Below are positions 3,851-44,085 of a DNA stretch of 64,000 bases, piece by piece. The first letter of the stretch is position 1. Each line of letters opens with the position of its first letter. The translations under genes were made by a program, and so were the position numbers. The stretch covers positions 186,001-250,000 of the forward strand of contig NZ_NBXD01000024.1 of NCBI RefSeq assembly GCF_003399645.1, in the 5' to 3' direction. Origin of the DNA: Subtercola boreus. Its GTDB lineage: Bacteria > Actinomycetota > Actinomycetes > Actinomycetales > Microbacteriaceae. The notes under the pieces were generated by a model, which ran no database searches, had not been told where the DNA came from, and saw only the letters and a list, made by a program, of their open reading frames with translations.

Positions 3851-3912
3851 GTGAGACACTTCCGGACTATCGAGACCGGCACGCGCGCCTCACATGTCCC
3901 GAACTGTCTCAC
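3851..3912. repeat. 62-nt palindromic repeat, copy 1 of 3
   Basis: Begins GTGAGACA, ends TGTCTCAC (8-bp perfect outer arms) and has a central inverted repeat around CGAGACCGGCAC/GCGCGCCTCA. The 12-nt segments between ends and centre are partly complementary (7 of 12 pairs). Two more copies of exactly 62 nt occur at 42893-42954 and 44024-44085. It sits between the convergent coaA and glmM genes, so it could also act as a bidirectional terminator, but there is no T-run. Confidence 0.8.
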
Positions 3913-41836: not shown

Positions 41837-42808
41837 TCACTCGTAGAGCAGGGCCCGGAGTTCACTCTCGGCCGAGGCCAGACGGGCGGGGTCGATGGTG
41901 AGGCCCTCGTTGAACTTGTCGACGAGGCGCGGGTCGACGTAACTGCTCTTCGCGATCGCGGGGGTGTTGCTCAGAACAGCCGCCGCGTCGCGCATGCTCT
42001 GCGCGAGCGCCTTCCTGCGCCTGTACTCCGAGGGCTGCGGCCCCGCCTTCGCGAGGCTCACCGCCGCGGCCAGAGTGCCGTGCAGGGTGCGGAAGTCCTT
42101 GGCGGTGAACTCTCCCCCGGTCTGCTCCCGCACGTACGAGTTGATGTCGAAAGCGCCCAGCGGATGCCAGTGGCCCCGCCCGTCGCGAAAGGCCAGCAGG
42201 TGGGCGTTCGGCCCACGCCGCTTCAGTCCGGCGACCACCCGGGCGAGCTCTTCGTCGCGGATGTCGGACTCCCACGACTGCCCGCTCTTCGCCGGGAACG
42301 CGAGATGAACGGTGTCGCCGCTCACCCGCACGTGCGCGCAGAGGAGGGTCGAGAGTCCGTAACTGCCGTGCTGCTCGGCGTACCGCTCGCTACCCACCCG
42401 GAGCGAACCCTGGTCGAGCATCCGGAATGCGGCGGCCGATGCACGATCGCGGTCGGGCTGCTCGCGCCGGAGGTCGAGTGTGACCTTCCGCCGGGCGACG
42501 GGCAGCGACTCGGCGAGGCTGAGCGCCCGGTCGAACTTGATGCGGTCCTTCTGCTCGCGCCAGGTGGGGTGGTAGATGTACTGGCGGCGGCCTGCGGCGT
42601 CGATACCGGTGGCCTGGATGTGGCCGTTCACGTACGGTGCGATCCACACCTCGCGCCAGGCCGGCGGAATGCCGAGGTGCTCGATGCGGGCGCGGAGCTC
42701 CGGGTCGGTGAGCGTGGTCCCGTCGACGTCGCGGTACGTGAACCCGCGCCCCGCCTTGAGCCGCCGGAGCCCCCTCCCGCTCGAATCGCTCCGTCGCAAC
42801 CTCACCAT
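41837..42808 (-). CDS. DNA topoisomerase IB (poxvirus/bacterial type)
   Basis: 323 residues. The N-terminal region holds GRGFTYRDVDGTTLTDPEL and IPPAWREVWIAPYVNGHIQATG, as in bacterial TopIB. Catalytic residues are visible: RVGSERYAEQHGSYGLSTL (Arg), AKDFRTLHGTLAA (Arg and His region) and the nucleophile Tyr in IAKSSYVDPRLV near residue 290. It relaxes supercoils without ATP. Convergent with the HxlR gene; upstream lies the DUF559 gene and a palindromic repeat. Confidence 0.94.
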   Translation of the reverse strand: MVRLRRSDSSGRGLRRLKAGRGFTYRDVDGTTLTDPELRARIEHLGIPPAWREVWIAPYVNGHIQATGIDAAGRRQYIYHPTWREQKDRIKFDRALSLAESLPVARRKVTLDLRREQPDRDRASAAAFRMLDQGSLRVGSERYAEQHGSYGLSTLLCAHVRVSGDTVHLAFPAKSGQSWESDIRDEELARVVAGLKRRGPNAHLLAFRDGRGHWHPLGAFDINSYVREQTGGEFTAKDFRTLHGTLAAAVSLAKAGPQPSEYRRRKALAQSMRDAAAVLSNTPAIAKSSYVDPRLVDKFNEGLTIDPARLASAESELRALLYE

Positions 42809-42892: not shown

Positions 42893-42954
42893 GTGAGACA
42901 CCTGCGGCCTGGCGAGACGCGCACGCGCGTCTCACCAGCGCACACGTGTCTCAC
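42893..42954. repeat. 62-nt palindromic repeat, copy 2 of 3
   Basis: Starts GTGAGACA, ends TGTCTCAC, with a central inverted repeat GAGACGCGC-AC-GCGCGTCTC (9 perfect pairs). The intervening 12-nt arms pair at 8 of 12 positions. Its last bases contain the stop codon of the DUF559 gene (TGA, 42953-42951). The 80 bases to its left are C-rich, as at copy 1. Confidence 0.88.
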
Positions 42955-44023: not shown

Positions 44024-44085
44024 GTGAGACAGGTGCGTGCAGTTGAGGCGCGCATGCGCGTCTCAACTGCACGTAGGTGTCTCAC
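44024..44085. repeat. 62-nt palindromic repeat, copy 3 of 3
   Basis: Starts GTGAGACA, ends TGTCTCAC. The centre is TTGAGGCGCGC-AT-GCGCGTCTCAA (10 of 11 pairs), and the variable arms pair at 9 of 12 positions, so nearly the whole element forms one hairpin. It is upstream of the DUF559 gene and downstream of the tuf terminator. Confidence 0.88.

Follow-up and report, generated by a model that had tools for sequence, protein, structure and literature searches.

A family of 62-nt intergenic palindromes in Subtercola and a candidate cognate protein combining an AbiEi-like half with a predicted Vsr-like nuclease domain

We describe a family of 62-nt palindromic elements in a 64,000-nt stretch of the Subtercola boreus genome (the window). 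We propose, with a probability of roughly 60%, that these palindromes are intergenic and non-autonomous, and that one cognate protein, encoded between two of them (P0001, Table 1), governs how they spread and what sequence they have. Computation supports the existence of the family and its constant length, the bracketing of the gene, the gene-specific sequence of the palindromes, their 19-nt geometry, the co-divergence of palindrome and protein, and the conservation of the catalytic residues. The mechanism that we infer comprises motif binding, DNA cutting, and copying caused by the cutting. The AbiEi-like N-terminal half would read a 7–8-nt motif present four times per element: each arm has two copies in direct orientation, spaced 19 nt apart, and the two arms are inverted relative to each other about the centre. 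The Vsr/EDxHD-like C-terminal domain would cut or nick the palindromic, perhaps extruded, DNA there, and repair or a hairpin intermediate would either copy the palindrome into gene-end sites or convert older palindromes at such sites to the current type.

Table 1. Palindromic elements and the gene bracketed by two of them in the window.
Feature	Position	Strand	Description
Palindromic element copy 1, 62 nt	3851..3912	.	Between convergent genes
Palindromic element copy 2, 62 nt	42893..42954	.	3′ end of nuclease-like gene; holds its TGA stop
Palindromic element copy 3, 62 nt	44024..44085	.	5′ of nuclease-like gene; 27/31 positions pair
P0001, 318 aa	42951..43907	-	AbiEi-like DNA-binding half (~7-200) and predicted Vsr/I-Bth0305I-type PD-(D/E)XK nuclease domain (~203-315)

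The three window copies had been reported in a sequence-only reading of the window, each exactly 62 nt long, beginning with GTGAGACA and ending with TGTCTCAC. We confirmed their coordinates, length, and ends, and zero such elements were expected (100 shuffles). RNA folding z-scores were -4.2, -6.3, and -10.0, each better than all 200 shuffles. A search of the own genome (3.67 Mb, 86 contigs) for the two ends separated by a free gap of 30–60 nt yielded nine copies, with a gap of 46 nt in 9/9, while a reversed control pattern yielded zero matches. A covariance model built from these copies (R1) detected 13 copies in the same genome (E ≤ 2.2e-9), all 62 nt long and mostly intergenic; this total includes the nine building copies, which match by construction. 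The genome-wide search that had been suggested thus extended the family beyond the initial three copies. One 64-nt match (L014, E = 0.2), located between the ends of two called ORFs, was discarded as chance. For the family itself, a chance origin was ruled out by the zero expectation in shuffles, the zero matches to the reversed pattern, and arm pairing in excess of that in shuffles.

In a gapless alignment of the nine copies, the 8-nt ends and positions C13, G14, and C17 were invariant. The end motif was found again 19 nt inside each end (TGAGAC, columns 21–26, mostly conserved), so each element holds four motif copies. The arms were variable yet paired in 83.9% of cells. Double-changed cells numbered 20, compared with a mean of 11.3 in shuffles, of which 0/500 scored as high; slid registers gave just 2–6, below the true register. 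The earlier claim that these palindromic repeats form a family of fixed length whose arms compensate was thereby borne out. The absence of a T-run also held for the enlarged set, as none of the 13 copies was followed by a run of four T, whichever strand was read. Simple intrinsic termination, for which a hairpin would be followed by a T-run in the flank, is inadequate for the family, as had been argued from the window alone. No Rfam family reached its gathering score within the 64-kb window. The sequence-only reading was silent on the inner motif and on the AbiEi-like/Vsr-like gene between copies 2 and 3.

Matches to R1 were present in 10 of the 12 Subtercola genomes (own included). Nearly all spans among the genus matches listed were 62 nt, with a few of 59, 63, 64, or 70 nt. 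End motifs differed by genome (e.g., GTGAGAC, GTGAGCC, GTGAGGC, and CCGCGAC), and the inner motif, as judged by eye, tended to track the outer one. Genome G007 had its own version, mostly of 70 nt (L023, L201, L220, L223, L234, and L236); at L023 the 19-nt motif spacing was retained and the centre was longer. A further palindrome type (CGGTGAG...) was observed in G003 (L218 and L221). In the wider family, a strictly filtered search that scored 18 candidates in each genome detected R1 matches in 17 of 299 genomes, six of the 17 being Subtercola. Many examples from other genera keep the 62 nt and a CGGAC-like core with different ends; some matched spans were 42, 58, 60, or 64 nt. Given so few positive genomes, the 62-nt type has a narrow distribution, and it is on loci chosen by protein that the broader claim made below rests.

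Copies 2 and 3 bracket a single gene, next to which tuf and a gene at 41837-42808 lie in the window. An all-against-all comparison of genes near 49 loci showed that, in two other genera, homologues of this gene (44% and 33% identity) directly adjoin elements. P0001 matched Pfam AbiEi_1 (1.9e-5) and the PADLOC AbiEi models (best 4.9e-15); NCBIfam gave no model for it, nor for the DUF559-type protein considered below. An AlphaFold2 model was obtained from 14 sequences (pLDDT 88.6, pTM 0.86). Residues 7–200 of the model resembled the AbiEi antitoxin 6y8q with a Z score of 10.7, but at 6.1 Å (Foldseek/VIA). Residues ~203–315 resembled the homing endonuclease I-Bth0305I (3r3p; Z 11.3, 94 residues, 2.5 Å), NGO0050 (3hrl; Z 10.3), and Vsr (1cw0; Z 9.7). 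Judged by this model, the C-terminal domain would adopt the Vsr/I-Bth0305I-like PD-(D/E)XK nuclease fold, and nuclease activity is predicted. Residues E208, D240, E251, D253, K257, and E262 were invariant among these 14 sequences, and an upstream E followed by D-x12-D-x3-[HK] was present in 76/80 homologues. Two of the four homologues without the full pattern keep its D-D-K part, and one has in-frame stop codons. The spacing equals that given for D102, D115, and H119 of Caulobacter VsrA, i.e., D-x12-D-x3-H, in PMC12907096. A phage origin of P0001 was rejected, as no phage record matched. Plasmid matches came from 10 records, all below 60% identity and nine below 80% coverage, and the matched proteins were named hypothetical, DUF559, or AbiEi family.

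Among nine genus loci (own included), the nuclease-like gene was present beside tuf in six and absent in three. Thirteen Cryobacterium loci have one or both flanks in common, at a different site from tuf. The gene thus occupies fixed loci within genera and so is not an active transposon, which weighs against our explanation.

We assessed the bracketing of homologues in the genus by means of R1. Elements lay on both sides of the homologue at the window locus (L050) and L052 (E ≤ 2e-4) and, weakly, at L053 (E 0.03–0.04). One-sided matches were found at L051 and L064 (E ≤ 5.4e-6) and, again weakly, at L055, L062, and L072 (0.11–0.18). No matched pair of this kind was detected by R1 at the remaining 22/30 genus loci. 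Several of the flanking element matches seen in the genus have weak support (E 0.03–0.3), and this counts against our explanation. Also against it, genomes G007, G008, G009, and G011 contain elements, with a best homologue only 29–36% identical; G003 contains a 48% homologue but no R1 match. At L057 (G001:C1:3741652-3745377), a clade B homologue was found as two separate fragments, which suggests that its frame is broken; G001 has no R1 matches.

A model-free palindrome scan revealed several more distant DUF559-type homologues bracketed by other palindromes. To avoid circularity, 80 loci were chosen by similarity to P0001 alone, palindromes being disregarded; these are the loci listed of 258 relatives found. 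They span Subtercola, Cryobacterium, Agreia, Arthrobacter, Pseudonocardia, Gordonia, and others, and two are labelled as non-actinobacterial (Sporosarcina and an Acidobacteria MAG). A palindrome was counted if its score reached 13 and it lay no more than 260 nt from the start or between -12 and +160 of the stop, thresholds that were fixed after the data had been seen. On this basis, palindromes occurred at either end of 68/80 genes, at the 5′ end of 50/80, at the 3′ end of 49/80, and at both ends of 31/80. The corresponding values for either and both ends were 3/24 and 0/24 for control genes at the same loci, 4/53 and 0/53 for control genes in the window, and 7/77 and 0/77 for the pooled controls; palindromes were found in four of about 400 random 172-nt stretches. 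Two of the 68 (L080 and L155) count solely via the terminator hairpin of the neighbouring tuf; their genes nonetheless have R1 elements alongside (as L051 and L052). Palindrome lengths at the 80 loci ranged from 34 to 90 nt. Where both ends scored at least 12 (38 loci), the two ends matched each other best in 25 cases; in 10 (own score at least 26), the only better matches came from other similar loci, and three failed (L111, L133, and L137); the same palindrome family was thus present on both sides in 35/38. The two palindromes of one gene are usually alike, and those of distant genes unlike.

We then considered 30 DUF559-type loci from the family. Palindromes were present at either end of 23/30 and at both ends of 9/30, and belonged to the same family in 9/10 loci with both ends scoring at least 12; the control genes (0/4 and 0/1) were too few for use. 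A strict catalytic pattern, written around Subtercola examples, was present in just 10/30, and we base no claim on it. In the own genome, the palindromes flanking P0001 differ from those flanking the DUF559-type gene at L078. The palindrome family delimited by GCGCAAAAGCACC and GGTGCTTTTGCGC numbers 31 own-genome copies (e.g., at L260, G000:C7:80567-84712), all with a 42-nt core though 36–64 nt were allowed. Two copies bracket a DUF559-type gene, and no exact copy occurs within the window. Five copies were found in G006, including one close to a 46% homologue, and zero in the four other genomes searched. A third family, TCGAGTGGGC, was detected in four of six genomes searched: G001 (36 copies), G003 (30), G002 (three), and G007 (four), with zero in G000 and G006. 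All copies were 58–59 nt long though 48–76 nt were allowed, and the four carriers have the bracketed gene (L068, G001) or a 71–74% homologue.

The internal geometry of the gene-flanking palindromes was assessed in 86 palindromes from the 80 loci, those scoring below 13 or shorter than 50 nt being left out. The left arm repeated itself at a shift of 19 nt, with at least 6/7 matching, in 45% of cases, compared with at most 7% at other shifts and 1% in shuffles. Since 18 DUF559-type palindromes showed no such repeat, it is claimed for the A/B set only.

We estimated co-divergence from Mantel correlations, which include shared ancestry, between palindrome and protein distances. Of the 81 rows (80 loci and P0001), 61 were left once loci had been dropped that lacked a palindrome of this kind or had one whose arm ran off; removing two proteins shorter than 250 aa then left 59. 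Over the 59 loci, r was 0.73 for residues 22–160 and 0.70 for the nuclease part, with partial correlations of 0.38 for the N-terminal part and 0.21 for the nuclease part (both p = 0.001); the correlation left to the nuclease part weighs against our explanation. Within clade A (20 loci), the respective r values were 0.92 and 0.85; the partial correlation was 0.68 for the N-terminal part given the nuclease part (p = 0.001) and 0.04 for the nuclease part given the N-terminal part (p = 0.4). The same pattern was obtained for 15 Cryobacterium loci. Given this asymmetry in clade A, the AbiEi-like N-terminal half is the putative reader of the palindrome.

The genomic placement of the 44 own copies (13 + 31; L001-L013 and L254-L281) bears on a role at the RNA level, with the elements acting as bidirectional terminators or 3′-end stabilisers at gene ends. 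Twenty-five copies lay in convergent, 15 in tandem, and zero in divergent gaps, the rest being inside a called ORF (three) or at a contig edge (one); the 52 other gaps of at least 60 nt comprised seven convergent, 34 tandem, and 11 divergent. With the simple ORF caller used, the excess in convergent gaps (p = 1.7e-6) and the dearth in divergent gaps (p = 0.002) fit such a role. So does flank composition: a C-rich left flank (38/44) and a G-rich right flank (37/44) mean that RNA read toward the hairpin is C-rich from both sides, as Rho sites are. However, four motif copies at 19-nt spacing, the fixed length, like copies 5′ of nuclease-like genes, and gene-specific sequence would all be left unexplained, and neither a T-run nor an Rfam match within the window was found. 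We therefore consider this account quite improbable, although an RNA-level function could be a secondary role of the elements. It appears very unlikely that the elements belong to a transposase gene located elsewhere, whether as MITEs of a DDE transposon or as Y1/RAYT-dependent REPs. They are short, inverted-repeat, dispersed, and intergenic, as that origin would have it, but target-site duplications of 4–9 nt were found at 0/13 and 0/31 own copies (offsets -2 to +2), 2-nt matches reaching 7/31 DUF559-type copies at two offsets versus 6% at random. Moreover, the Y1/HUH transposase (PF01797, Y1_Tnp) was detected in 0/12 genus genomes and in 5/14 control genomes, and palindromes bracket nuclease-like homologues in loci chosen regardless of palindromes.

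Two further accounts depend on the history of individual sites. We compared 11 own element sites with those of four relatives, using a palindrome score of at least 13. Palindromes were present at 10/11 sites in G002 (nine of the same type), 6/10 in G007 (mostly its own 70-nt type), 3/11 in G003, and 2/11 in G001; some of these are probably ordinary hairpins, and we do not use the counts as a statistic. The high occupancy in G002 tells against our main explanation. If the AbiEi-like nuclease were a regulator or chromosome-maintenance factor and the palindromes were operators kept by host use, with no mobilisation, one could understand the fixed loci of the gene, the shared occupancy of sites in G000 and G002, and the resemblance of the N-terminal half to the AbiEi antitoxin, a repressor that binds inverted repeats. 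Such domestication is nevertheless rather unlikely: few neighbour families recur beside elements, orthologous sites aside; the same sites in G001, G003, and G007 have other palindromes or none; and the catalytic residues are conserved. Same-site copies of G000 and G002 were also barely more alike than different-site copies (0.758 versus 0.741, p = 0.05), indicating independent insertion or concerted replacement. Somewhat unlikely is conversion only, in which the nuclease would cut older or foreign palindromes, repair would install its own type, and new sites would be rare; as a narrower form of our main reading, it has odds that overlap with those given above. It would accommodate the site of L009, where five species show four palindrome types beside a gene that we take to be clpC-like, the 70-nt type of G007 at the compared sites, and a nuclease fold closest to that of the homing endonuclease I-Bth0305I; the relatives without any palindrome at a site speak against it. 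At the site of own L003, G003 (L197) shows a possible deletion scar, with TGAGAC kept at the stop and the rest gone relative to G002 (L200).

The nearest known system is REP/RAYT. By the definition in PMC3733652, a REP is a palindrome of 20–40 bp that has a GTAG (or CGTC) tag on one of its ends. A RAYT is described as one gene with a palindrome on either side, both from a genome-dispersed, intergenic REP/REPIN family whose arms show complementary changes, palindromes and RAYT being thought to co-evolve (PMC2817692, PMC3116915, and PMC8049555). RAYTs are also described there as kept by descent and stably inherited (PMC8049555, PMC3116915). The nuclease-like gene is likewise stably inherited within genera and flanked by two family palindromes (own pair; both sides in 31/80); intergenic palindromes, arm compensation, and co-divergence with the protein are further likenesses. 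In contrast, the elements described here are 62-nt palindromes with four motif copies 19 nt apart and without a GTAG/CGTC tag, and the protein is AbiEi-like plus Vsr-like PD-(D/E)XK, whereas RAYT is HUH/Y1. Since the enzyme is unrelated and Y1_Tnp was not found in the 12 genus genomes, the system is not a member of REP/RAYT but may work alike, and our best reading, by analogy, is that it would work like REP/RAYT with an unrelated enzyme. The initial suggestion of REP-like elements or MITEs therefore stands in part: REP-like is the best functional analogy, while REP membership fails on length, tag, and Y1, and a MITE origin on the missing target-site duplications of at least 4 nt.

The protein also has relatives among known families. 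It shares the predicted fold with Vsr, DUF559 (PF04480), MTES_1575 (PF18741), and I-Bth0305I, and the catalytic spacing with VsrA (D-x12-D-x3-H; here H or K), but differs in that the nuclease domain is joined to an AbiEi-like half and has palindromes on its two sides. The N-terminal half alone matches AbiEi of the AbiE type IV toxin-antitoxin systems, by HMM and by structure, but here a nuclease-like domain is fused to it and like palindromes are dispersed in the genome. In the open-access full-text literature, covered by titles and abstract openings and with few subscription papers or preprints, we found no AbiEi-, DUF559-, or Vsr-like genes with cognate palindromes.

If the proposal is true, many solitary AbiEi-like/DUF559 genes of Actinobacteria would gain a role, the REP/RAYT way of life would have arisen a second time with an unrelated nuclease, and the origin and upkeep of dispersed palindromes would become testable by exchanging DNA-binding halves and cognate motifs. 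More tentatively, and with less than even confidence, we suggest that the AbiEi–Vsr/DUF559 genes of Actinobacteria may form a large unrecognised selfish or domesticated class. Each gene would drive its own palindromes, and cleavage would overwrite rivals at gene-end sites, with concerted evolution and a contest between nuclease–palindrome pairs. A DUF559-type homologue (E ≤ 1e-15) was detected in 38 of 60 Microbacteriaceae genomes.
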